Source: Aquificota bacterium (lineage in GTDB: Bacteria; Aquificota; Aquificia; Aquificales; Hydrogenothermaceae). Taken from it: DNA of 64,000 nt. Under the pieces are notes generated by a model. That model was not told the origin of the DNA. It was given only the letters and a program-made list of their open reading frames with translations, and searched no databases. The stretch spans positions 1-64,000 of the forward strand of contig JAADDZ010000012.1 of assembly GCA_013153635.1 (NCBI GenBank). The letters run 5' to 3'. Position 1 is the stretch's first letter. Each line of letters begins with the position of its first letter. Shown here piece by piece: positions 11,430-35,785 of the stretch. A program made the position numbers and the translations under genes.

Positions 11430-12677
11430 ATGGAATATCTCTATCCAGACCAAAAAGGATACTTTGGAGATTTTGGAGGAAAATTCCTTCCAGAGACATT
11501 AATCCCTGCTTTAGAAGAGTTAGAATACGCATATCAAAAAATAAAACATGATGGAGATTTCCAAAGAGAATTAATATATTACCTAAGAGAGTATGCTGGC
11601 AGACCAACAGTACTATATTTTGCAAAAAGATTAACAGAAGCTACCGGTGGAGCAAAAATCTATCTCAAAAGAGAAGACCTTCTCCACACAGGAGCTCATA
11701 AGATAAACAATACCTTAGGACAAGTATTACTCACAAGAAAACTTGGTAAAAAAAGAATAATCGCAGAGACAGGAGCAGGACAGCACGGAGTATCCACTGC
11801 AACAGCCGCATCACTGTTTGGTTTAGAATGTGTGATATACATGGGAGAGGAAGATGCAGAAAGACAAGCCCTAAATGTTTTTAGAATGAAGCTTTTAGGG
11901 GCAGAAGTCAAAATAGTAAAATCTGGGAGTAGAACATTAAAAGATGCGGTAAATGAGGCTCTTAGGGATTGGGTTACAAATGTTAGAACTACCCATTATG
12001 TAATAGGTTCTGCGTTAGGTCCTCACCCTTTTCCTGTAATAGTAAGAGATTTTCAATCTGTAATAGGGAAAGAGACAAAAGAAGAGATACTCGAAATAGA
12101 AGGCAGACTACCAGATGTAGTTGTAGCTTGCGTTGGAGGGGGAAGCAACGCCATAGGAATGTTTTACCCATTTATAGAGGACGAAAAAGTAAAACTAGTA
12201 GGTGTAGAAGCTGAAGGATACGGCATAGAAACAGGACAACATGCGGCAAGTATAAACGGAGGTTCTGTAGGAGTACTGCATGGAATGAAATCATACTTCC
12301 TTCAAGACGAATGGGGACAGATAGAACCTACCCATTCAATATCAGCTGGATTAGACTATCCGGGAGTAGGACCAGAACACGCCTTTTTGAAAAAAATAGG
12401 TAGGGCGCAGTACCTAACCGCAACAGACGAAGAAGCCCTTGAAGGATTTTTATTACTGTCGCGAACAGAGGGGATAATCCCAGCCTTAGAGAGTTCCCAC
12501 GCGATAATAAAAGGCGTGCAGATAGCAAAAACCTTACCAAAAGATGCGGTTGTGGTTATCAACCTTTCTGGGCGTGGAGACAAAGATGTACAGCAAGTTA
12601 AAAAGATATTAGATACAGATACAGAATTAGCCTATAGACTCGAAGAAAAACTTAGAAAAGATTATTTTCAGATTTAA
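11430..12677 (+). CDS. trpB: Tryptophan synthase beta chain (canonical TrpB1)
   Basis: Converts indole and serine to tryptophan in the TrpA/TrpB complex. The PLP lysine is Lys91 in HTGAHKINN, and the phosphate loop is [10 protein letters not shown]. The N-terminus ([12 protein letters not shown]) is the form that contacts TrpA. Length is 415. AAGGTGA overlapping the end of mrcA serves as its ribosome binding site. trpA is not in the window. Compare trpB2 at 816-2114. Confidence 0.97.
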
Positions 12678-18409: not shown

Positions 18410-19276
18410 ATGGCAAAAAGACTAAAAGAGTTTTTAGAAGAACAGCATCTTACTCTAAATGATAATGCAAAGTTACTTTTTGAAAAGTTAGGCTTACCAA
18501 AGGAAATTTTATCAAAGTTAGAAGAGGAATATGGAAAATCTGACAAAATGTCAAAATCAAAGCACAACACTGTAGACCCTGACGAGATGATAGAAAAATA
18601 TGGAGCTGACACTGTTCGCCTATACATTCTTTTTGCGGCACCTCCAGAGAACAACTTTGATTGGACTGATGCAGGTGTAGAAGGGTCTCATAGATTTTTA
18701 AGAAGGGTTTGGAATCTGATAGTCTCCAATCTGAACATAGTAAAGGGGGTATATTACTCAAGAGAAGATTTTAAAAATCTTTCCCAAGAAGATAAAAATA
18801 TAAGAAAAAAGCTCCACCAAACGATAAAAAAAGTAAATGAAGACATAACCAAGAACTACCAGTTTAATACTGCGATAGCTTCTATAATGGAGCTAGTAAA
18901 TCTCCTTTATACATATAAGAACAAAAACCCTAAAGTTTTAAAAGAAGCGTTTGAAAATCTCATCTTGATGCTTTCACCATTTACTCCTTTTATAGCAGAT
19001 AAACTGTGGGAAATGCTTGGGAAAGAAGGGTTCACTATATACTATCCTTTTCCTGAACCTGATGAAGAAGCTCTTGTAGAAGAAACCAAAGAGATTCCTG
19101 TCCAGATAAATGCAAAAGTGAGAGCAAAAATCACTGTCCCTGTAGATGCAGATGAAAAAACAGTAGTAGATACAGCGCTAAACAACGAAAGTGTAAAAAA
19201 ATGGATTGAAGGAAAACAGATAGTAAAAACGATTTTTATAAAAGGAAAAATACTGAATATCGTAGTAAAAGGTTAA
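18410..19276 (+). CDS. leuS: Leucyl-tRNA synthetase, beta subunit
   Basis: This is only the C-terminal part of LeuRS. The KMSKS loop is at residues 46-50 (SDKMSKSKHNTVDP), followed by ADTVRLYILFAAPPENNFDW, the anticodon-binding helical bundle and the C-terminal tRNA-binding domain. The HIGH motif and editing domain are absent. The 288-residue length and the break before KMSKS match the natural split of Aquifex LeuRS into alpha and beta subunits, so this is an intact subunit and not a truncated pseudogene. It has its own ATG, six bases after the lipoprotein gene. The alpha subunit must be elsewhere in the genome. Confidence 0.93.
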   Translation: MAKRLKEFLEEQHLTLNDNAKLLFEKLGLPKEILSKLEEEYGKSDKMSKSKHNTVDPDEMIEKYGADTVRLYILFAAPPENNFDWTDAGVEGSHRFLRRVWNLIVSNLNIVKGVYYSREDFKNLSQEDKNIRKKLHQTIKKVNEDITKNYQFNTAIASIMELVNLLYTYKNKNPKVLKEAFENLILMLSPFTPFIADKLWEMLGKEGFTIYYPFPEPDEEALVEETKEIPVQINAKVRAKITVPVDADEKTVVDTALNNESVKKWIEGKQIVKTIFIKGKILNIVVKG

Positions 19277-24804: not shown

Positions 24805-25764
24805 ATGAAGATAGTATTTTTAGACGCTAAGACTATAGGTAATGATATAAATTTGGAGATATTAGGTGGCTTTGGAGATTTGGTTCTGTATCCAAATACG
24901 AAACCAGCTCAATTAGGGGAGAGAATATACGATGCAGATATTATTATCACCAATAAAGTTGTAATAGATAAAAAGGCTATGGATAATGCTCCTAATCTAA
25001 AATTGATATGTATAGCCGCAACTGGTACAAATAATGTTGATGTTAGATATGCGAGGGAAAAAGGTATCGCTGTTACTAATGTATCTGGTTATTCCACTGA
25101 AAGTGTAGTTCAGCATACTTTTGGAATGTTGTTTTATCTTTTGGAACATCTTAGATATTATGATGAGTACGTAAAAAGTGGAGAATACGCAAGGAGTGAT
25201 ATTTTTACTCATTTAGGTAGACCTTTTTGGGAGGTGTATGGAAAAAGGTGGGGCATAATAGGATTAGGAACTATAGGAAGGAGAGTAGGACAGGTTGCAA
25301 AGGGCTTTGGATTAGATGTGGTCTATTATTCTACTTCTGGAATAGAAAGGGAAGAAGATTTTCAGAGTGTATCTCTTGAGGAGCTGTTGAGTACTAGTGA
25401 TATTGTTTCTATACATGCTCCTTTGAACGAAAACACAAAAAATCTCATTAGTTATGAGCAGTTCAAGGTAATGAAATCTTCTGCGATATTACTTAACTTA
25501 GGAAGAGGTGGTATTGTTAACGAGTACGACCTAGCAAGAGCTTTAGATGAAAACCTTATTGCTGGCGTAGGGCTTGATGTTCTTGAGAGAGAACCGATAA
25601 CATCGGATAATCCTCTATTAAAAGTAAAAAATCCAGAAAAAATTTTGATAACTCCTCATATAGCTTGGACTTCTATAGAAGCAAGGAAAAGACTTATAAA
25701 TGAGATATATAAAAATATAGAAGCTTTTTTAAATGGTGCTGTCAGAAATAGAGTTGACTTGTGA
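24805..25764 (+). CDS. D-2-hydroxyacid dehydrogenase family protein
   Basis: An NAD-dependent dehydrogenase of the D-isomer-specific family. The Rossmann motif is IIGLGTIGRRV, catalytic Arg lies in NLGRGGIVNE, Glu in LEREP and His in ITPHIAW. About 319 residues is normal for glycerate/hydroxypyruvate-reductase-like members. The substrate is not predictable. AAGGGGGAAGG precedes ATG 24805. The last 36 bases overlap the histidine kinase gene on the other strand. Confidence 0.92.
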   Translation: MKIVFLDAKTIGNDINLEILGGFGDLVLYPNTKPAQLGERIYDADIIITNKVVIDKKAMDNAPNLKLICIAATGTNNVDVRYAREKGIAVTNVSGYSTESVVQHTFGMLFYLLEHLRYYDEYVKSGEYARSDIFTHLGRPFWEVYGKRWGIIGLGTIGRRVGQVAKGFGLDVVYYSTSGIEREEDFQSVSLEELLSTSDIVSIHAPLNENTKNLISYEQFKVMKSSAILLNLGRGGIVNEYDLARALDENLIAGVGLDVLEREPITSDNPLLKVKNPEKILITPHIAWTSIEARKRLINEIYKNIEAFLNGAVRNRVDL

Positions 25765-27822
25765 TTTTGGCAATATCACTACAAACTCACTTCCTTTACC
25801 TATACCTTCGCTATGAACTTCTATTTCTCCATTTAGAAGCTTTACTAATCTTTTGACTAAAGCCAAACCTAGACCTGTACCTTTATGTTTTTTCTGTAAA
25901 GGACTTTCTATCTGTTCAAAATCTTTAAAAATTCTTTCTAAATCTTTTGGTGCTATTCCTATACCTGTATCTTTTACTGTTATCTGTACTTTTTCCTTAT
26001 CTTCTGTTGCAGATATAGATATATATCCTTCATTTGTAAATTTAACTGCGTTTGATAGTAGGTTAAGTAGTATCTGTTTTAATAGTTTTTTATCTGTAGG
26101 GAGTTCTATTTTTAAATCTTTAGGAAATATCACATTTAGATTCTTCTGCTTTGCTATAGGCTCTATTATGCGGTAGATTTCATCGAAGACCTCTTGGAGG
26201 TCTACATTTTCTATTCTAGGTTTTATTTTGTTTGCTTCAGCTTTTGCAAAATCTAATATGTCGTTTATTAAGGATAATAGATGTTCACTGGAGACTCTGA
26301 TGCTTTTTGCCATATCTTTGTATTCTTCAGATAAATCTTCAGCCATCTCTAAAAGAGAAGAGAATCCTATAATAGAGTTTAGAGGGGTTCTAAGTTCGTG
26401 AGACATATTAGCTATAAAGATAGATTTTGCTTTTGAAGAGGCTTGGGCTTTTTGTAGTAGCTCTTTTAATGTTTCTAACATACTTATATGCTCAAACCAC
26501 AGAGACAACATCTTTGATATAGATTCTAAGAAAGCTTTTTCCTCTTGGGATATTTTTTTTCCAGTTTTAAAACACAAAAACCCTTCAGAAATGGTTTTAT
26601 TTTTCCTATAGTCTTTATAAGAAATATCAATACAATAGCTATCACTCTCTTCTTTATTTGCAAAGTTTACTTCGTAACCAAATATAGATTTTATATTTTG
26701 TTTTAAAAGATTTATGGCTTCTTCTTTTGTTTGGGTTTCTGTTAAATTGTAGAAAAACTCTATTAGTTTGGTAAATAAAAGTAACCTCTCTTTACTTTCT
26801 ATCTCTAACTCTTTTATGACTTTTTCAATCTCGTCTAGTAGATTATTAAAGGCATTTGCTAGTAGTTGAATCTCGTCTTCAGAGGGAATCTCTATTCTTT
26901 TTGAATAGTCTTTTGTTTTCGCTATACTGTTTGCAAATTTTGTAAGCTGTTCTAGGGGGTTTATGATAAGTTTTGAAACAATTATGGAAAATATTATAAT
27001 CCCAGCTGTACCCAAAGCTCCAAAAAATATTATGCTGTGCAAGATAGTGTTTATAGGAGAAAAAGCAAACTCTTTGTCTACAACAGAGATAGAAAAAATA
27101 TCAGCATTAAAGATTTTTTTTGATAGTTTTTTGTAAAATATAAAAAATTCTTCTGTTTCTAGAAAATGTCCCTTTTTATTTTTTAAAAGTTTCTCTAACT
27201 CTAAATCTACATCTATAGGTTCGTATGTAGGAAGCTGAAAACTATATACAAAAAATTTGTATCCTTTTGTAGTTCGTGAAAACATCTCAAGGCTTTTAGG
27301 ATACACCAAAACTACTAAGTTTCCTATATAAAGGTTTCTAAAAGATGTATATATAGGAGCAAAGATAAATAGATACTTCTGTCCATAGAACTCTATAGGG
27401 TTAAATTTGTAATCTGTTAAAAGTCCAATAGGAAATTTTTTAAATAGATACTCTTTTTTTGTAGAAGAGATGATTTTACCGCTTTTATTAAGGACTAATA
27501 TTTCTATAAATAGGTTGCTGTTTATTTTTACTTTTTTGATGAATTTGGCTATTCTTTTGTCTATGTCTCCCACTAATATATCGTCCATTATTTGATAGCT
27601 AGACCATAAAAAAGACTGTTTCCTAAGATGTTCAAACTCTTTTTCTATTAAGTTGGCGGTTTGTAGATTTCTAAGCCTAAGGTCTTCTTGTATATTTATT
27701 GAGATAGCTTTTTTTGCTTCTGTGAGGGATATAAACAAAAATATAACGAAGGGGAGTAACCCGATAATCAAAAACCAAAATAAAAGTTTGTATCTGATAC
27801 TTCTTAATCTAAATATTCTCAT
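25729..27822 (-). CDS. Membrane sensor histidine kinase
   Basis: Order of parts: first membrane helix (about 13-33), extracytoplasmic sensor (about 35-255), second membrane helix (about 265-290), HAMP (about 292-345), a GAF-like region (about 355-450), HisKA with phospho-acceptor His475 (MSHELRTPLN), then HATPase with N box NLLSNAVKF, G1 DTGIGIA and G2 GTGLGLA. All catalytic motifs are intact. It overlaps the receiver gene by 14 bases and is the last gene of porin-PstS-like-receiver-kinase. The signal may therefore be the solute handled by the first two proteins (inference). Confidence 0.93.
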   Translation of the reverse strand: MRIFRLRSIRYKLLFWFLIIGLLPFVIFLFISLTEAKKAISINIQEDLRLRNLQTANLIEKEFEHLRKQSFLWSSYQIMDDILVGDIDKRIAKFIKKVKINSNLFIEILVLNKSGKIISSTKKEYLFKKFPIGLLTDYKFNPIEFYGQKYLFIFAPIYTSFRNLYIGNLVVLVYPKSLEMFSRTTKGYKFFVYSFQLPTYEPIDVDLELEKLLKNKKGHFLETEEFFIFYKKLSKKIFNADIFSISVVDKEFAFSPINTILHSIIFFGALGTAGIIIFSIIVSKLIINPLEQLTKFANSIAKTKDYSKRIEIPSEDEIQLLANAFNNLLDEIEKVIKELEIESKERLLLFTKLIEFFYNLTETQTKEEAINLLKQNIKSIFGYEVNFANKEESDSYCIDISYKDYRKNKTISEGFLCFKTGKKISQEEKAFLESISKMLSLWFEHISMLETLKELLQKAQASSKAKSIFIANMSHELRTPLNSIIGFSSLLEMAEDLSEEYKDMAKSIRVSSEHLLSLINDILDFAKAEANKIKPRIENVDLQEVFDEIYRIIEPIAKQKNLNVIFPKDLKIELPTDKKLLKQILLNLLSNAVKFTNEGYISISATEDKEKVQITVKDTGIGIAPKDLERIFKDFEQIESPLQKKHKGTGLGLALVKRLVKLLNGEIEVHSEGIGKGSEFVVILPKSQVNSISDSTI

Positions 27823-28171
27823 CTTTGGACAAAGTTTCTTTTAAGATTTTAATTAGATTTTGGACATTTATAGGTTTTTGTACGAAGATGTATCTACCTT
27901 CTAATTCTAGTTCATCTTTTTCTAAAGCTGTAACGATAATCACAGTAACATCTTTTTTTATACTTTTTAGTATCTGAACTCCGTTCATATCTGGAAGTAG
28001 AATATCTAAAAGTACTAAGCTTACAGGTATCGTTTTTAGTATGTCTAATGCTTGTGATGCGTTTTCTGCTTCTAGGATATTTAAGTTAATATCTAATTTT
28101 TTTAAGATAATCTTTAGAAGTTTCCTATTTTCTATTTCATCATCGATGATGAGTACTGTTTTAGTTTTCAT
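27809..28171 (-). CDS. Single-domain response regulator
   Basis: A 120-residue receiver with no output domain. The acidic pocket is Asp10, Asp11 and Glu12, the phospho-acceptor is Asp56 (LLDILLPDMNG), the switch Thr is 81 and Lys99-Pro100 closes the site. Such stand-alone receivers act in phosphorelays or by protein binding. The kinase downstream overlaps it by 14 bases and is the obvious partner. Its own ATG overlaps the preceding gene by 11 bases. Confidence 0.93.
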   Translation of the reverse strand: MKTKTVLIIDDEIENRKLLKIILKKLDINLNILEAENASQALDILKTIPVSLVLLDILLPDMNGVQILKSIKKDVTVIIVTALEKDELELEGRYIFVQKPINVQNLIKILKETLSKDENI

Positions 28172-28595
28172 CTATCTTAATCCTCAAAATAACCTTTACT
28201 GTATTGTTCAGATATTTTGGAGTTATGTATCCTATAGCTCCTTCTACCTTTGATACAAATCTAACTACCGCCTTTTGAGATTTTAGAACTATAGGAGGGT
28301 CTATACCTCTTAGATACATTTCGTTCCAATATAAAGCTAACTGTTCTTCGTCCATTCCTAATACATATTTATTAAATATATCCCGTAATGGATTAAACGG
28401 GTGGAGATTTACAGGAATTACCCTTACGTACTTGATAAAAAGTTTTTTCTTTAGATAGATTAATTTTATGTCTCTTTTTGATACATAATCTACTGGTAAG
28501 GATTTATTGGCTATAATTAAAAGTTCTTGGGAAAGAGAGGGTTTTAAAGCTAAAAAGCATATTAAAAAGACTAATATTATATTTATTTTTTTCAT
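28161..28595 (-). CDS. Small periplasmic binding (PstS-like) protein
   Basis: I place the start at ATG 28595 (MKKINIILVFLICFLALKPS), which gives a clean signal peptide; a TTG at 28628 would overlap the porin gene. The mature part of about 120 residues matches the short phosphate-ABC-transporter substrate-binding-like family: ELLIIANKSLP, LPVDYVSKRDIKLIYL, then FNKYVLGMDEEQLALYWNEMYLRG and the closing VEGAIGYITPKYL. No ABC transporter genes are adjacent, so it may act as a sensor accessory. It begins four bases after the porin stop. Confidence 0.8.
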   Translation of the reverse strand: MKKINIILVFLICFLALKPSLSQELLIIANKSLPVDYVSKRDIKLIYLKKKLFIKYVRVIPVNLHPFNPLRDIFNKYVLGMDEEQLALYWNEMYLRGIDPPIVLKSQKAVVRFVSKVEGAIGYITPKYLNNTVKVILRIKIDEN

Positions 28596-28599
28596 TCTT

Positions 28600-29703
28600 C
28601 TAAAAAAGCAAAGAAAATGAAGCCGCAAACTCCAAAATATCCCCTGCTATACTATCCCTCCTAAACTGCCCCTCTATTTTTAGTGAAATAGGATATAAGG
28701 GTCTGTAGTTCCACCCAATCAATAGGGCTTTTATATTTTTATCTTTTTTCTCACTGTTAAAATAATCATTTCTAAGAATGAGATAATTTTTTGAAAACAC
28801 TCTTAAAATACCTTGAATGTAATAAGCTAACCTTTGATAGGTTTGTGTTGTTCCTTTTTCTGTTCCATAAATGATTTCAGACATGAAGCGAAATCTTCTA
28901 AAAGGTATATCTATACTCGTACTAAAAAATTTCACATAACTGTCTATAGATAAGTCTTTAAAGGAGCCTAAAGCAAAACCTAAAGATGAATCTGAAAAAT
29001 ATTTTCTTATCTCTGTTCCATAAAAATCATCAGTCCGTACATTATTGTTTCTGTCATCTATACCTTTTGTCTTTTGTGCAAAAATAGAATATTCCCAGCT
29101 GTTTTGTTGGAAAGGTAATAAACCAAATAGCCGTACTCCTGTTGTAAAAATAGGGAAAAATTCTGTTGCGGCAGGAGGGTCTATAGAAGTCCATTTAAGA
29201 GGAGGTATATGGATAGGATTCCACAATCCTATAGGTGTGATAAATTTTCCAATTCTAAAGCGTAAGGCGTCAGAGAATAGATAATCAAAAAATATCCTCT
29301 CTATTTCCGGGTTTATGTTGAAATCTCTTTCTACTTCTACTTCCCAATGTTCATGTTCTTCATCATACTCGTATTCATCATCATCTTCTTCATAATCCTC
29401 ATAGTCATATTTAATCTCTCTTTTTTTTACATACAAGTTTCTAGCTTCAACTTCCAAGAAAAAATTACTTCTTTTTGTTATGTTTCCGTATAATAGGAGT
29501 GCAAGGTTTTCTATGTTAAATTCAAATTCTTCATCATTTGTCCAGCGGTATTTTAAAGCAAAGTAACCTCCAATCCTAAAAGGAATCCCTTTTATTTTTA
29601 GACCCCTACCAAATTGGTAATCTATGAGTTTATCTTGAGAATAAGAAGGAATACTTATCAGTATAAAAATTAAAATAAATGTGTATATGAGTTTTGCCTT
29701 CAA
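28600..29703 (-). CDS. Outer-membrane porin (OprP-like beta-barrel)
   Basis: A signal peptide (residues 1-22, ending SYS-Q) is followed by alternating beta-strand sequence and a C-terminal Phe (AASFSLLF), the mark of an outer-membrane barrel. The segments IGGYFALKYRW, FFLEVEARNLY, FRIGKFITPIGLWNP and FPIFTTGVRLFG resemble phosphate-selective porin-type proteins. Residues 100-126 are an extremely acidic loop with several His and Tyr, perhaps a cation-binding loop. It is first in the operon with the PstS-like, receiver and kinase genes. Confidence 0.82.
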   Translation of the reverse strand: MKAKLIYTFILIFILISIPSYSQDKLIDYQFGRGLKIKGIPFRIGGYFALKYRWTNDEEFEFNIENLALLLYGNITKRSNFFLEVEARNLYVKKREIKYDYEDYEEDDDEYEYDEEHEHWEVEVERDFNINPEIERIFFDYLFSDALRFRIGKFITPIGLWNPIHIPPLKWTSIDPPAATEFFPIFTTGVRLFGLLPFQQNSWEYSIFAQKTKGIDDRNNNVRTDDFYGTEIRKYFSDSSLGFALGSFKDLSIDSYVKFFSTSIDIPFRRFRFMSEIIYGTEKGTTQTYQRLAYYIQGILRVFSKNYLILRNDYFNSEKKDKNIKALLIGWNYRPLYPISLKIEGQFRRDSIAGDILEFAASFSLLF

Positions 29704-29751: not shown

Positions 29752-29775
29752 AAAAAAAGGGGGGCGGAAAGCCCC
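29752..29775 (-). terminator. Terminator of the repeat-lipoprotein/cytochrome operon
   Basis: Read on the minus strand, GGGGC TTTCC GCCCC is followed by CC and seven T. It lies 20 bases after the stop of the nine-haem cytochrome gene. Confidence 0.8.
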
Positions 29776-29795: not shown

Positions 29796-32165
29796 TTAGT
29801 CATCATAATCAGGTCCATTGTGACAGTCATAACAACTAATTTTATGTCCTGCTTGGAACGTTTTGGTACCCCATTCTGTTCTAAATGTTTTGGTTGTTTT
29901 TACTTCAGATAGATATGTTCCTCTGTAATCATTACCATGACATTTTGCACAGCTTTTGTATCTACCGTCTTCTGCGTATTCTTCATGTTCGTCAACCCAC
30001 TTTTGACCTATAGTATGCATTCCATGAGGTCCACCGTCAGCAGTTAGAGGGACATTGTTTCCGTGACATACGAAACACTCTGTTATAGTTCCTTTGTATC
30101 CTTGGAGCTGGATACTTTGTAGATTGTCTCCTTCATGAGAACTTGGATATATAGCGTGTGTAGAACCGTGGCAAGCTTCACATTTTATACCGCCGTGTCC
30201 TTTGCTAAATCTGTATAAGCTGTAACCGGGCATAGGAGTATCTGGATTTGTTGCAAATGTTTTATCAGAAGGCTCTACAAACTGACCGTTCACTATAGCT
30301 TTTAGCTCTCTTTTTCCATCGTAGTGACATGCTTGACATGTAGGCATATCAAGCCAACCTTCTCTTCCTGCTTTACCAACGATGCTCATACTTCCATGGC
30401 AATCTTGACACTGAATTCCTGCACTTCCCATAGCTCCTCTTAAACATTGGGTCTCTTCACCCGGGTGACATTTATAACAAGAGCCTCTATTGTTAATGTC
30501 ATTAAGTCTTAAGCCTGTTTTAGGGTCTATAGCATACGCGTGTCTTGAATGTATAGACTGTGTTAGAGGAGGAATTCCTGCGACTCCTGTCCCCGGAAGA
30601 GCGTTAGATTTGTGACAAGCGGCACAAAGCACAGGTGTTCCACTTTTTGCAGTGTCATATAAGGTGCTTTGGTATGTGTAACCTTTTGCCTGTAAGTCAG
30701 GAAGATAAGGAGTTATATCATGTTTATCGTCATGTAGTTTTAGGATATTCCATCTATAGTCTTTTTCTTTGTTTGGGTCATTCTCCCAACCAGAGGAAGG
30801 CATAGCATCAGTATAACCAGAGTTAGAGCCGTGGCATTCTATACATGTCATTTCATCACTTACAGGTAATACTGTTCTTGTAGTAGCAAGAACGTTTCCA
30901 GATTTGTCTGTTGCTACTACTTTCATAAGTGGGTAGAAGTTTTTCTTCATGTTGTCGTCATAAGGAGTTATTGGTATACCTTCTGCTGTGAACCAATTCC
31001 AATGATGGTCATACTCTAAAGGCTCTGGGTCTGGAGACATTTTTTTGCCCTTTAGTCCCACATCTGGTTGAAGAGATACTTGGAATAATGCATAAACATA
31101 TTCCCAGAAGTTTGTTTTTCCTGCGCTGTATGTATTAATAGAACCTGTAAATGGGTCTGGAGTAGGCTCATAATATACATCTACCTGTGTTTCATCTAAT
31201 TTATCTGGCTCATGTCCTTTTCTTACAACTTGAGCGATAAGTGTGTTGTATGGAGGAAGTATCGAAAATACAGAATAATCAGAGTCCATACAGTGCATTC
31301 CTAAATCATTCCAAGCAAGTACAGTATAGTCTGTTTGAGAACCCATACCGCTATTGTAGTTGTAGTTATCATTGTAGTTTCCATTGTAGTTGTCATTTGA
31401 ATTGGAGTTAGAGTTGCTATTATAGTTGGAGTTGTAGTTACTGTTGTAGTTTGAGTTGCCGTTGTAATTGTCATTGGAATTACTGTTAGAGTTACTATTA
31501 CTATTTGAGTTGCCGTTGTAGTTATCATTAGAGTTAGAATTGCTATTTGAATTACCATTGTAGTTATCATTTGAATTACTGTTGTAATTATCGTTGGAGT
31601 TAGAATTGCTATTAGAGTTACCATTGTAGTTAGAATTACTGTTAGAGTTATCATTTGAATTAAAGTTCATGTTTTCTAAATAATCAGGGATTCCATTGCC
31701 ATTATCATCTGTTATTGAATCACTAGACGGTTCTATAGAATCATCATAAGTTACATCAACTAAGTCAGGTTTACCATCATAATCTACATCTGATAATTTT
31801 ATTATAAGCACACCATCATCTAGAACTGTAAAGGCATTGTAGTTACCTTTTTTTACAGCTAATAAAGGGTTACCGTCTTTATCATATAGAACAAATGAGT
31901 ACTTTAGTCTCTTTTTAAGTTTTAGATAAAATTTTCCATCACTTTGTATATCATCTGTAACCGCATGAGGTTTTCCATTCTTTCTAACAGCCATTGCAGA
32001 TATGTATCCTATTTCTACGCCACCTACATCTATAGATTGAGAAGAGAGTTGAGCGGTATCTATCGTTCCTTCTATAGTAGCAACCCCACCATCACTAGAA
32101 GAACTCCCGCAGGAGTAGAGAAAAGCTCCCCCTGCGAGTAAAGATGCATATAGAAATTTTTTCAT
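29796..32165 (-). CDS. Nine-haem c-type cytochrome lipoprotein with alternating-Asn linker
   Basis: A 789-residue surface or periplasmic electron-transfer protein. Residues 1-19 are a lipoprotein signal (LYSCG). Residues 20-166 form a small domain shared with the upstream gene, with two Asp-rich DxDxDG-type calcium-like loops (DVDYDGKPD, DDNGNGIPD). Residues 167-271 are a linker with Asn at every odd position. Then comes a region containing LAWNDLGMHCMD and LPPYNTLIAQV. Nine CxxCH haem sites start at 441, 514, 563, 586, 610, 662, 697, 739 and 778. It starts 26 bases after the upstream paralogue, with AGGAGG, and shares its sigma-54 promoter. Electron partner unknown; surface location is inferred. 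Confidence 0.9.
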   Translation of the reverse strand: MKKFLYASLLAGGAFLYSCGSSSSDGGVATIEGTIDTAQLSSQSIDVGGVEIGYISAMAVRKNGKPHAVTDDIQSDGKFYLKLKKRLKYSFVLYDKDGNPLLAVKKGNYNAFTVLDDGVLIIKLSDVDYDGKPDLVDVTYDDSIEPSSDSITDDNGNGIPDYLENMNFNSNDNSNSNSNYNGNSNSNSNSNDNYNSNSNDNYNGNSNSNSNSNDNYNGNSNSNSNSNSNSNDNYNGNSNYNSNYNSNYNSNSNSNSNDNYNGNYNDNYNYNSGMGSQTDYTVLAWNDLGMHCMDSDYSVFSILPPYNTLIAQVVRKGHEPDKLDETQVDVYYEPTPDPFTGSINTYSAGKTNFWEYVYALFQVSLQPDVGLKGKKMSPDPEPLEYDHHWNWFTAEGIPITPYDDNMKKNFYPLMKVVATDKSGNVLATTRTVLPVSDEMTCIECHGSNSGYTDAMPSSGWENDPNKEKDYRWNILKLHDDKHDITPYLPDLQAKGYTYQSTLYDTAKSGTPVLCAACHKSNALPGTGVAGIPPLTQSIHSRHAYAIDPKTGLRLNDINNRGSCYKCHPGEETQCLRGAMGSAGIQCQDCHGSMSIVGKAGREGWLDMPTCQACHYDGKRELKAIVNGQFVEPSDKTFATNPDTPMPGYSLYRFSKGHGGIKCEACHGSTHAIYPSSHEGDNLQSIQLQGYKGTITECFVCHGNNVPLTADGGPHGMHTIGQKWVDEHEEYAEDGRYKSCAKCHGNDYRGTYLSEVKTTKTFRTEWGTKTFQAGHKISCYDCHNGPDYDD
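31353..31667 (-). repeat. Alternating-Asn coding repeat (short copy)
   Basis: A six-base period encodes Asn followed by Ser, Tyr, Asp or Gly (with single Met and Phe exceptions at the N-terminal edge), residues 167-271 of the nine-haem lipoprotein. Asn codons vary between AAC and AAT and partner codons also vary, so the array is conserved as protein rather than as identical DNA. Confidence 0.9.
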
Positions 32166-32191
32166 TTTATACCTCCTTATATAATGCTGGT

Positions 32192-33802
32192 TTATCCGTT
32201 ATAATTCCAATTCCAATTATAGTTTTCATTTTCGTTTTCGTTTTCATTATCGTTGTGATTCCAGTTGTAGTTGTAGTTGTCGTTATCATTGTCATTGTCA
32301 TTGTGGTTGTAGTTGTAATTCCAGTTATCGTTTGAATTGTAATTGTAGTTATAGTTGTCGTTGGAGTTAGAGTTGTAATTAGAGTTGTAGTTGCTGTTAT
32401 CGTTTGAATTATAGTTGTAGTTATAGTTGTCATTGCTATTACTATTGTAGTTATAGTTGCTGTTGTAGTTGGAATTATAGTTACTGTTATAATTGGAGTT
32501 GCTATTAGAGTTGTAATTGGAATTACTGTTATAGTTGGAGTTGTAGTTACTGTTTGAGTTGGAGTTAGAGTTATAGTTTGAGTTGCTGTTGCCATTGTAA
32601 TTGTAGTTACTGTTTGAATTATAGTTACTGTTGTAGTTTGAGTTGCTATTACTATTGTAGTTTGAGTTCATATTAGAGTTATAGTTGTAATTGTAATTAC
32701 TGTTTGAGTTGCTGTTGTAGTTAGAATTGCTGTTGTAGTTACTGTTGTAGTTTGAGTTGCTGTTTGAGTTGTAATTAGAATTAGAGTTGCTGTTGCTATT
32801 ACTGTTATAGTTTGAGTTCATGTTGGAGTTGCTGTTGTAATTACTGTTACTGTTGGAATTGTAATTGCTATTAGAGTTGCTGTTATAGTTAGAATTGCTA
32901 TTGCTATTGGAGTTATAGTTGGAATTGCTGTTACTATTAGAATTATAGTTTGAGTTCATATTACTATTTGAATTACTGTTGTAGTTGCCATTGGAGTTAG
33001 AATTGCTATTAGAGTTGCTATTGCTGTTTGAATTGCTGTTATAGTTGTCGTTAGAGTTAGAATTGCTATTAGAGTTGCTATTGCTGTTTGAATTGCCGTT
33101 GTAATTGTCATTGGAGTTGGAATTGCTGTTTGAGTTGTTATTGCTGTTTGAATTGCTGTTATAGTTGTCGTTAGAGTTAGAATTGCTGTTAGAGTTGCTG
33201 TTACTGTTTGAATTGCCGTTGTAATTGTCATTGGAGTTGGAATTGCTGTTTGAGTTGCTATTGCTATTTGAATTGCTGTTGTAGTTGTCATTGGAGTTGA
33301 CGTTTATGTTTTCGGCTCTATCAGGTATACCATCGTTATTACTATCATCGTAGTCTCCGTTAGATGGCTCTATAGAATCATCATAGCTTACATTTACTAA
33401 GTCAGGTTTACCATCATTATTTGTGTCAGCTAGAGAAACAGTAAGTACACCATCATCTAGAACTGTAAAAGCATTGTAGTTACCTTTTTTGATAGCAAGT
33501 ATAGGTATTGCATCTTTATCATATAGGATAAATGAGTACTTTAGTCTTTTTGCTAACTTGAGTCTGAAGCTTCCATCGTCATTAATCCTACTCACAGTTA
33601 TTCTAGGTGTACCGTCTTTCCTTAGAGCTAAAGCAGATATATATCCGATTTCCACGCTACCTACATCTATAGATTGAGAAGAGAGTTGGGCAGTATTTAT
33701 ACTTCCTTCTATAGTGGCTACATCGCTACCGCCTGAACCTCCGCCGCACGAGTAGAGAAAAGCTCCCCCTGCGAGCAAAGACATTGATAAAAGTTTCTTC
33801 AT
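32192..33802 (-). CDS. Lipoprotein with long alternating-Asn repeat, paralogue of the cytochrome N-terminus
   Basis: Residues 1-19 are a lipoprotein signal (LYSCG). Residues 20-166 align without gaps with the same part of the downstream nine-haem protein, including two calcium-like loops (DTNNDGKPD, DSNNDGIPD). From residue 165 to the end (536) every second residue is Asn, with Ser, Tyr, Asp and Gly as partners, changing to Asp, Glu, Trp and His near the C-terminus. There is no haem motif. The gene ends cleanly with TAA, 26 bases before the next gene, so it is not an obvious truncation. It is the first gene behind the sigma-54 promoter. I infer an extended, hydrophilic surface stalk or adhesive fibre; the function is unknown. 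Confidence 0.88.
   Translation of the reverse strand: MKKLLSMSLLAGGAFLYSCGGGSGGSDVATIEGSINTAQLSSQSIDVGSVEIGYISALALRKDGTPRITVSRINDDGSFRLKLAKRLKYSFILYDKDAIPILAIKKGNYNAFTVLDDGVLTVSLADTNNDGKPDLVNVSYDDSIEPSNGDYDDSNNDGIPDRAENINVNSNDNYNSNSNSNSNSNSNSNSNDNYNGNSNSNSNSNSNSNSNDNYNSNSNSNNNSNSNSNSNDNYNGNSNSNSNSNSNSNSNDNYNSNSNSNSNSNSNSNSNGNYNSNSNSNMNSNYNSNSNSNSNYNSNSNSNSNYNSNSNSNYNSNSNSNYNSNSNMNSNYNSNSNSNSNSNYNSNSNSNYNSNYNSNSNYNSNSNSNYNYNYNSNMNSNYNSNSNSNYNSNYNSNSNYNYNGNSNSNYNSNSNSNSNYNSNYNSNSNYNSNSNSNYNSNYNSNYNSNYNYNSNSNDNYNYNYNSNDNSNYNSNYNSNSNDNYNYNYNSNDNWNYNYNHNDNDNDNDNYNYNWNHNDNENENENENYNWNWNYNG
32195..33304 (-). repeat. Alternating-Asn coding repeat (long copy)
   Basis: About 370 codons with Asn in every odd position and no break in phase. 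Sub-units such as NSNSNSNDNYNG recur near the N-terminal end, NSNSNYNSN in the middle, and NDNENENYNW at the end. Open frames on both strands through this region are low-complexity by-products. Confidence 0.92.
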
Positions 33803-33850: not shown

Positions 33851-33866
33851 TGCAAATTTTGTGCCA
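33851..33866 (-). promoter_or_regulatory. Sigma-54 promoter for the repeat-lipoprotein/cytochrome operon
   Basis: On the minus strand TGGCACAAAATTTGCA matches the -24/-12 consensus (TGGCAC, five bases, TTGCA). It lies about 50 bases before the ATG at 33802, with room for a short leader and the GGAGG site. The next gene upstream on this strand encodes a sigma-54 activator. Confidence 0.9.
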
Positions 33867-33986: not shown

Positions 33987-34003
33987 TGTATCAAGTTGAT
34001 ACA
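33987..34003. promoter_or_regulatory. 17-bp perfect palindrome, candidate activator site
   Basis: TGTATCAAGTTGATACA is a perfect inverted repeat around one base, about 130 bp upstream of the sigma-54 promoter, the usual distance for an enhancer site. It overlaps the last codons of the activator gene. A similar site occurs at 35359-35376. Confidence 0.55.
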
Positions 34004-35310
34004 TCTTTAGTAAGATTATATTTTTTTATCTTTCTGTATATTTCTGCTCTAGTTTTTCCAGATAGCTTTGAGGCTTTAGAGATATTCCAATTTGTAAAGT
34101 CTAAAAGTTTCTTTATATAGTTTTTTTCGAATCTCTCTTTTTCCTCTTTATAGGGTCTTATAAGGTTAGAACTTTGGGAGATGTTAAACTGATTTATCGT
34201 TTCGTTTTCATTGAGGATTAATGTTTTTTCAATTAAGTGCTGTAATTCTCTCACATTTCCTTCCCAACCATACTCTAAAAGTTGATTTTGTGCTTTTTTA
34301 GATAATTTTTTCTCTGGTATTCCATATTTTAATGAGTATTTTTTTATAAAAAATCTAGCTAATGGAAGTATATCTTCTTTTCTTTCTCTAAGAGGAGGTA
34401 TATGTAACCTAACTACATTTAATCGGTAGTACAAATCTTCTCTAAATCTTCCTTCTTTTACCATTTTATCCAAGTCTCTGTTTGTTGCGGCTATAAATCT
34501 TACATCTATTTTTTTTGATTTTGTGCTTCCTAAGGGTCTTATTTCTCCTTCTTCTAAAACTCTAAGTAACTTTACCTGCAAATCTAGAGGAAGTTCTCCT
34601 ATTTCGTCTAAAAATAATGTACCTCCATTTGCTTCCTCTATTAATCCTTTTTTGGCATGTGTAGCTCCGGTAAAAGCTCCTTTTTCATAGCCAAACAGTT
34701 CAGATTCTAGTAAGTCTCTCGGTATAGCTCCACAGTTTACTGCTATAAAAGGTTTGTTTTTTCTTTTACTTTTTTTGTGTATGTATTTTGCTAGCATTTC
34801 TTTTCCTGTTCCGCTTTCTCCAGTTATTAGCACGGTTATGTCAAAGGGAGCTATTTTTTCAGCATTCTTTAGAATAGTTTTCATTATTGGACTTTCTGCA
34901 ATAAAGTCTGTTTCTATTATCTCTTTCAGTGTAGATATTTCTTTTTTTAGATTTGTTATATGGTGAATTTTATCTATTATTAATCTCAATTCTTCTATAT
35001 CTATAGGTTTTAATATGTAATAAAAAGCTCCTTTTTTAATCGCTTCTACTGCATCTTGGACATTTCCGTAAGCTGTCATTATGACGATGGGTATCTCTTT
35101 TTTTATCTCTTTTATCTCATTTATGGCGTCTATACCTTCTCTATCTGGCATGTATTGGTCTAATAATATGAGTTCATAAGAGTTTTTTTGAAGTAGACTT
35201 TTTGCTTCTTCTAGGTTTTCTGCTTTGTCTACATTGAAACCTTCTTTGTTTAATTTTATTGCTGTGAGCTGTAAAAAATCCTTATCGTCATCAATAAGTA
35301 GTATTTTCAT
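33991..35310 (-). CDS. Sigma-54-dependent response regulator (NtrC family)
   Basis: Receiver domain with phospho-acceptor Asp51 (residues 1-120), AAA+ domain with Walker A GESGTGKE at 164-171, the sigma-54 contact loop GAFTGA at 211-216, Walker B TLFLDE at 231-236 and AATNRDLD following, then a Fis-type HTH at about 405-433 (NISKASKLSGKTRAEIYRKI). All signature residues are intact. It lies directly upstream of the sigma-54 promoter at 33851-33866, on the same strand, and is its probable activator (inference). Length is 439, normal. Confidence 0.96.
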   Translation of the reverse strand: MKILLIDDDKDFLQLTAIKLNKEGFNVDKAENLEEAKSLLQKNSYELILLDQYMPDREGIDAINEIKEIKKEIPIVIMTAYGNVQDAVEAIKKGAFYYILKPIDIEELRLIIDKIHHITNLKKEISTLKEIIETDFIAESPIMKTILKNAEKIAPFDITVLITGESGTGKEMLAKYIHKKSKRKNKPFIAVNCGAIPRDLLESELFGYEKGAFTGATHAKKGLIEEANGGTLFLDEIGELPLDLQVKLLRVLEEGEIRPLGSTKSKKIDVRFIAATNRDLDKMVKEGRFREDLYYRLNVVRLHIPPLRERKEDILPLARFFIKKYSLKYGIPEKKLSKKAQNQLLEYGWEGNVRELQHLIEKTLILNENETINQFNISQSSNLIRPYKEEKERFEKNYIKKLLDFTNWNISKASKLSGKTRAEIYRKIKKYNLTKDVST

Positions 35311-35358: not shown

Positions 35359-35376
35359 TGTATTAATTTTGATACA
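35359..35376. promoter_or_regulatory. Second TGTAT..ATACA palindrome
   Basis: TGTATTAATTTTGATACA shares its right half exactly (TTGATACA), and its left half but for one base, with the palindrome at 33987-34003; the spacing is one base longer. It lies about 50 bp upstream of the activator start and overlaps the stop of the preceding gene, which suggests autoregulation. Confidence 0.45.
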
Positions 35377-35785
35377 TTTTTATAAATTCCAATAGAAACT
35401 TTTCGAGATTATCATTAGGATAGAAGTTTCCTTCTATTTTTAGTTTATTGTTGATTATTTTAATTTTTAAATCTGGTGATTTGTTCAAATTTTTGATTGT
35501 ATTTATCAATATTTCTACGATTTTAGGGTCTGCTATTATTAAAAATTTGTCATTTACTCCAAAGTATTTTGCTAAATTTATCTCCTTTTTTTGAGGGTCT
35601 ATATCAAAAAAACTGGTTAGTAATGCATTACAAAAGGTTTTTAATCTTTTGGCTGAATTATCCATTATTTTTAGAACGGCTTCTTTTTCTTGGTCTGATA
35701 ACTCTGTTTTTAGTAACTGGATAGATGTTTCCAATTTGGAAAAAACCGCGTCTATATCATGTCTTGTTTTCCTATCAAACTTCAT
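35363..35785 (-). CDS. Small degenerate histidine-kinase-like protein
   Basis: A 140-residue soluble protein. Residues 5-24 (RKTRHDIDAVFSKLETSIQL) look like a dimerisation helix with a possible acceptor His9 followed by Asp, and residues 85-102 (ADPKIVEILINTIKNLNK) resemble the N-box helix of a HATPase domain. The ATP-binding G1 and G2 glycine motifs are missing. This layout recalls ChpT/Spo0B-type phosphotransferases rather than active kinases. The ATG overlaps the deacetylase gene by four bases, and the NtrC-type regulator follows. Assignment is by pattern only. Confidence 0.6.
   Translation of the reverse strand: MKFDRKTRHDIDAVFSKLETSIQLLKTELSDQEKEAVLKIMDNSAKRLKTFCNALLTSFFDIDPQKKEINLAKYFGVNDKFLIIADPKIVEILINTIKNLNKSPDLKIKIINNKLKIEGNFYPNDNLEKFLLEFIKMYQN

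Follow-up and report, generated by a model that had tools for sequence, protein, structure and literature searches.

Two adjacent lipoprotein genes in a 64,000-nucleotide stretch of contig JAADDZ010000012.1 from a hydrothermal-vent Aquificota bacterium of the Hydrogenothermaceae (the window, whose numbering is used throughout) encode proteins in which asparagine occupies every second residue of a long repeat (Asn-X); in one the repeat forms a C-terminal stalk and in the other a linker leading to a nine-haem cytochrome. We propose that this Asn-X tail serves as acceptor for a dedicated membrane transferase, distantly related to the oligosaccharyltransferase STT3, and that the product is a modified stalk carrying the cytochrome, a proposal for and against which we consider the evidence evenly balanced. 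More tentatively, and with the balance tipping slightly the other way, we suggest that it represents an undescribed modification system, in which an STT3-related transferase without the DxD motif acts on overlapping N-X-N signals in Asn-X tails grafted onto unrelated surface proteins, here building coated cytochrome stalks.

Both genes are open reading frames on the reverse strand. The first (32192-33802) encodes the stalk lipoprotein of 536 residues and the second, 26 bp downstream (29796-32165), the cytochrome lipoprotein of 789 residues with nine CxxCH motifs; each has a lipobox cysteine at residue 19. Residues 1-166 align without gaps and 114 of 166 are identical, compared with approximately 10-35 matches in shifted registers. 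This region includes an N-terminal beta-sandwich domain, residues 20-164 of both proteins (33311-33745 and 31674-32108, both reverse strand), with 69% identity between the copies. The repeat starts at N165 in both, extending over residues 165-536 of the stalk protein (32195-33310, reverse strand), where 186 of 186 alternate positions are Asn, and over residues 165-272 of the cytochrome (31350-31673, reverse strand), where 54 of 54 are. The cytochrome head (residues 279-789; 29799-31331, reverse strand) comprises a beta domain of about 160 residues with a WNDLGMHC motif, followed by the nine-haem domain, the CxxCH sites of the protein being at residues 441, 514, 563, 586, 610, 662, 697, 739 and 778. 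An earlier note on this DNA had described a gap-free shared N-terminus of 166 residues, entry into the repeat in the same phase, and a stalk-only partner beside a protein with nine CxxCH sites, and our alignments bear out each of these. The N-terminal domain was modelled with AlphaFold2 as all-beta (predicted local distance difference test, pLDDT, 88.6), with weak transthyretin/CnaB/DUF3823-like fold matches, and no Pfam family matched it. It occurs in only two copies in the source genome and in 12 of 61 relatives, chiefly Hydrogenothermaceae.

The Asn-X repeat is not a slippage artefact; its alternation is maintained at the protein level by purifying selection. The proximal repeat is a tandem DNA array with a 60-bp period and the remainder is degenerate. 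Differences among six 60-bp units are mostly synonymous (ratio of replacement to synonymous differences, pN/pS, about 0.09, with pS at 0.66 near saturation), AAC and AAT codons are intermixed randomly along the array and serine is drawn from both codon families, all of which argue for maintenance of the protein sequence. Strict alternation eliminates N-X-S/T sequons, of which the stalk has one in 370 residues against 52 in shuffled sequences, and Tyr and Trp are enriched toward the C-terminus of the stalk protein. As a separate observation, serine codons across 32195-33310 switch between AGY and TCN above chance (69 runs versus 53, z 3.2), perhaps reducing repetitiveness of the DNA. Profile matches to MSCRAMM adhesins and circumsporozoite protein were rejected as composition; the Ser-Asp repeats of the former and the repeats of the latter resemble the tail as repetitive extended stalks, but there is no homology beyond the repeat and neither is strictly Asn-X.

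Across the order, a DNA pattern for (Asn-X)12 matches six of 112 genomes (G000, the source genome, with G001, G002, G066, G106 and G107), and the 218 matches in the source genome correspond to the two window proteins (175 and 43, by run lengths). The repeat is a module found on several unrelated secreted heads, terminating a secreted protein with a GYWKNH motif (G002), lipoproteins with DUF4382/DUF5666 (G106, G107) and a partial protein (G066) in addition to the pair described here. Over eight proteins with several head types, 454 of 455 alternate positions are Asn while X is highly varied (Asp, Gly, Ser, His, Met and Asn among relatives; almost never Lys, Arg or Pro), and hence Asn is the invariant residue of the tail. 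The GYWKNH protein (locus L138, 335-1843) has 502 residues, no Pfam match and a 140-residue strict Asn-X end.

Directly 3' of the Asn-X gene in G066, G106 and G107, and on the same strand, lies a gene for a multi-pass membrane protein of 480-500 residues. A search with this STT3-like enzyme recovered the same six genomes as the only carriers among the 112, so that none has the (Asn-X)12 tail or the enzyme alone; the probability of such co-occurrence by chance is 4e-10 assuming independent genomes and 6e-4 when counted by genus. The gene of the source genome lies outside the window (G000, contig C19, 77671-79056). The linker of this cytochrome follows the same division: its longest Asn-X runs measure 54, 69 and 12 where the genome encodes the enzyme (three genomes), against 3, 2, 2, 2, 2 and 1 in the six family members that lack it. 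Among 19 genomes from other loci, one, belonging to the Desulfobulbaceae in another phylum (G122), has the enzyme, and here a secreted (SNSNS)n protein of 114 residues is encoded directly 5' of it. Its other flank carries genes for a GT2 glycosyltransferase and a LAB_N protein, which adjoin the enzyme in this genome only. In their own right, these four genes (L155, 1389-3332 and 390-1411) form a compact cassette and possibly a minimal system. Ten genomes of the same phylum also matched the DNA pattern, but on inspection these matches proved to be simple hexamer repeats in the DNA or stretches of irregular Asn/Asp rather than strict secreted Asn-X, and they were set aside. The DUF4382/DUF5666 lipoproteins with Asn-X tails (L140, 6085-7371; L141, 5686-7029) are encoded immediately 5' of the enzyme; both loci have a gene for an SNF-type transporter close by, as does the enzyme gene of the window's genus. 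Plasmids and viral contigs gave no match to the enzyme, and neither did 347 Campylobacterota genomes, in a search that had no positive control.

Of the 112 genomes, 33 encode a canonical STT3, none of them in the window's genus. When the enzyme was compared with canonical Aquificales STT3 using hhalign, the two aligned over 358 columns with their motifs in register (probability 93.7%, E 2e-7), compared with a probability of 0.2% for an unrelated transporter used as control, and the NCBIfam model archaeo_STT3 matches five of six enzyme members, the best at 3.7e-5. D40 of the enzyme is invariant and aligned with the DGYF of external loop 1 (EL1) in canonical Aquificales STT3, the loop that supplies the catalytic aspartate D56 of PglB (PMC7226087), and a TIxE-type Glu is also in register. 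The enzyme shares with STT3, PglB and AglB (PF02516, TIGR04154) distant homology, the EL1 Asp, the TIxE-type Glu, an RF..Y motif and WD(D) at the position of WWD, but it is shorter (about 480 residues), has lost DxD, has DWDDF in place of WWDxG and is not recognised by Pfam, and its putative acceptor repeats, unlike STT3/PglB substrates, lack N-X-S/T. We call it STT3-like, and do not class it as an STT3 oligosaccharyltransferase, because the DxD motif is missing and WWD is replaced by DWDD. Distant homologues, 21-33% identical where aligned, were seen in the phylum of G122 at L163, L165, L166 and L167, one being a TPR fusion and one a tandem pair.

We suggest glycosylation of the tail and recognition of N-X-N on four grounds: tail and enzyme co-occur, their genes adjoin, Asn is kept so faithfully, and the enzyme is a distant homologue of STT3. 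In known oligosaccharyltransferases the WWD motif recognises Ser or Thr at +2 and the acceptor Asn is held between two acidic residues (PMC7226087), and Asn-X-Asn is on record as a rare site of N-glycosylation outside the consensus (PMC12818257). Under the proposed mechanism, two surface lipoproteins anchored in the outer membrane would be expressed under sigma-54 control, each consisting of a small beta-sandwich followed by a polymer with Asn at alternate residues; a stalk of about 108 residues would keep the nine-haem redox head at a distance from the membrane, and the partner protein would be stalk alone. The STT3-like transferase would modify the Asn residues, most likely with sugar from a polyprenyl-linked donor, reading N-X-N as an overlapping signal in which every Asn is both an acceptor and the +2 recognition residue for the preceding Asn. 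The product would be an extended, densely coated and protease-resistant stalk.

Several observations weigh against this proposal. Scores of the enzyme against NCBIfam models fall far under the curated cut-off and searches of Pfam and PDB sequences returned no match. The DxD/DxE metal motif is absent, RIQSLSLA being aligned to RFDTDSLN, and as the DxD metal ligands are replaced the chemistry may differ from that of a known oligosaccharyltransferase. At the WWD position, close members have DWDDF, without the first Trp, and WWDDF is found in the homologue at L166. We identified no donor pathway in the source genome, and the enzyme gene stands apart from the repeat genes in the window's genus. Tail and enzyme are combined in only three genera of the order and one genome outside it; that genome, G122, lacks a strict (Asn-X)12 run, and its phylum contains distant enzyme homologues that have no Asn-repeat neighbour.

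The most substantial alternative is that Asn-X is no more than a linker or brush, flexible, uncharged and disordered, the counterpart of the Asp-, Ser- or Gly-rich linkers in relatives, and that its link with the STT3-like enzyme reflects shared ancestry or chance. Haem domains of sister genera are 61-72% identical to that described here, yet their linkers are Asp-rich or irregular; nearly all relatives have a low-complexity sequence in the same place, of variable length and of Ser/Asp, Gly or Asp/Asn composition, and the Asn-X form is confined to the window's genus. This pattern speaks for a linker, as does the dependence of the co-occurrence in the order on just three genera, but a plain spacer needs neither near-perfect Asn fidelity nor an X that drifts freely beside it, and direct adjacency of tail and enzyme in four genomes of two phyla is unlikely by chance; we regard the linker explanation as unlikely, while treating it as a serious contender. 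The alternation might instead specify an extended beta-strand polymer with one Asn face, a ladder or amyloid-like fibre serving attachment or alignment of cytochromes, with the enzyme acting elsewhere. A period of two and the Tyr/Trp enrichment near the stalk C-terminus suit such a structure, but the range of residues at X argues against a designed second face and the association with the enzyme is left unexplained, making this improbable. Asn-Ser and Asn-Gly are deamidation hot spots, and the tail might be converted at growth temperature into an Asp-X polyanion, resembling the Asp-rich tails at the same position in sister genera, for binding metal or mineral. Across the two proteins, however, selection has kept an Asn codon at every alternate position (240 of 240), and Asp could be encoded directly; we consider this very improbable.

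The cytochrome head belongs to a family of at least 550 relatives in a scan of 84,980 species. The best 80 come from Campylobacterota, Thiobacillus, Rhodocyclaceae, Hydrogenophilales, Acidobacteria and others, mostly with 53-60% identity outside the Hydrogenothermaceae, and many of the lineages are known sulfur oxidisers. Across 44 aligned relatives the nine CxxCH motifs never vary, and neither do another nine His and another two Cys, as expected of nine bis-His haems. Modelled with AlphaFold2 (pLDDT 82.5, predicted template modelling score, pTM, 0.84), the head has one beta domain preceding the haem part; it matches PF22113 (MtrC/MtrF) above the curated cut-off (E 1.3e-13; 51.3 bits, cut-off 30), and weak matches to DmsE and other multihaem profiles were discounted. 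Foldseek returned no match to the model in PDB with E of 0.001 or less, perhaps due to the scant secondary structure of haem domains and the haem-free model. Like the outer-membrane decahaem cytochromes MtrC, MtrF and OmcA, the protein combines a beta domain and a multihaem domain on a lipoprotein, but MtrC and OmcA have ten haems, two pentahaem domains and two beta domains, where we find nine haems, one beta domain and the WNDLGMHC motif. An MtrCAB-type conduit is unsupported, since a profile search for the MtrB/PioB porin (PF11854) found no match in G000-G002. In several phyla the head follows a lipobox or secretion signal, usually with a low-complexity linker or Ig-like domains next, and members of the family are probably surface cytochromes. 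Lipobox and analogy suggest that both lipoproteins described here are exposed at the surface, and we infer that the cytochrome exchanges electrons with sulfur, minerals or partners.

Upstream of the stalk gene by 64 nt is a -24/-12 sigma-54 promoter at 33851-33866 on the reverse strand (TGGCACAAAATTTGCA; TGGCAC-N5-TTGCA), with no mismatches and the only such match within the window. Similar sites lie 41-57 nt 5' of homologous genes in eight other genomes (G001-G005, G012, G013 and G018); over the nine loci (41-64 nt upstream) two sites are perfect and the others have one or two mismatches. Behind the cytochrome gene is an intrinsic terminator (29761-29775, reverse strand; GGGGC-TTTCC-GCCCC and a T run) and, given this and the promoter before the first gene, the two genes would seem to be transcribed together and separately from the porin gene that follows. 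Neighbouring genes, also on the reverse strand, encode an NtrC-type sigma-54 response regulator (33991-35310; Pfam Sigma54_activat, 6e-77), which adjoins the homologues too, and a small protein with an H-box-like (R/K)HDI motif (35363-35785), conserved beside the regulator in G001-G004, G008 and G013 and probably its phosphotransfer partner. On the other side are genes for a small outer-membrane porin (28600-29703), a relative of which in L027 matches Porin_O_P at 1.5e-5 and which adjoins family cytochromes at 23 of 80 loci; a small PstS-like periplasmic protein (28161-28628; 19 of 80 loci, weak pstS_2 match); and two further conserved neighbours, a response regulator receiver (27809-28171) and a membrane sensor histidine kinase (25729-27822). 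The order activator, cytochrome, porin, PstS-like protein, regulator and kinase is kept wholly or partly in G001, G002, G003, G005, G008, G012 and G018. The porin, PstS-like and kinase genes also accompany cytochromes in Campylobacterota (the Sulfurimonas-type cluster), whereas the sigma-54 lipoprotein operon and its N-terminal beta domain turned up in Hydrogenothermaceae only.

G004 retains N-terminal-domain proteins and the gene cluster without the cytochrome, which suggests that the lipoprotein module is independent of the haem head; the locus (L028, 7308-9355) has two N-terminal-domain lipoproteins, a sigma-54 site and the porin/PstS-like/kinase cluster. The second, stalk-type lipoprotein is optional, being absent or having another tail in most sister genera: the partner ends in Asn-X in the window, in YEYRNGYDDDR repeats in G005 (an acidic-aromatic tail, L029, 4675-6021) and in Lys/Asp/Glu in G012. 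The sigma-54 promoter named in the earlier note is perfect in the window, recurs before homologous genes and adjoins an activator, and the conserved neighbours that it proposed seeking were found. Its picture of a dedicated, regulated surface electron-transfer or attachment system is sustained in part, by lipoprotein architecture, by sigma-54 control in nine loci and by a multihaem domain behind a lipobox or secretion signal. There is no support for the Asn-X repeat being intrinsic to electron transfer: linkers of sister genera differ, the stalk-type partner is missing or differently tailed in most of them, the tail ends proteins other than cytochromes and it tracks the STT3-like enzyme. The note had also held that homologues with the repeat absent or random in length and with unlinked genes would count against it; homologues lacking the repeat and lacking a linked partner do exist, which in part counts against it.

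Elsewhere in the window, judged by eye, a short open reading frame at 18410-19276 resembles the C-terminal (beta) part of a split leucyl-tRNA synthetase, and there are two tryptophan-synthase-beta-like genes at 804-2114 and 11430-12677.

A literature search, covering few subscription journals, found no paper on this Asn-X repeat, an N-X-N repeat system or the nine-haem cytochrome family. The family is widely distributed, with many members in sulfur-oxidiser lineages and a conserved regulatory neighbourhood, and as far as we have found it appears to be undescribed. If the proposal for the tail is true, bacterial asparagine modification is not bound to N-X-S/T as its signal, and a single protein can offer acceptor sites by the hundred, one next to another. 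The short repeat and one membrane protein would then constitute a natural enzyme-substrate pair, which is directly testable and might be used to make heavily glycosylated polymers.

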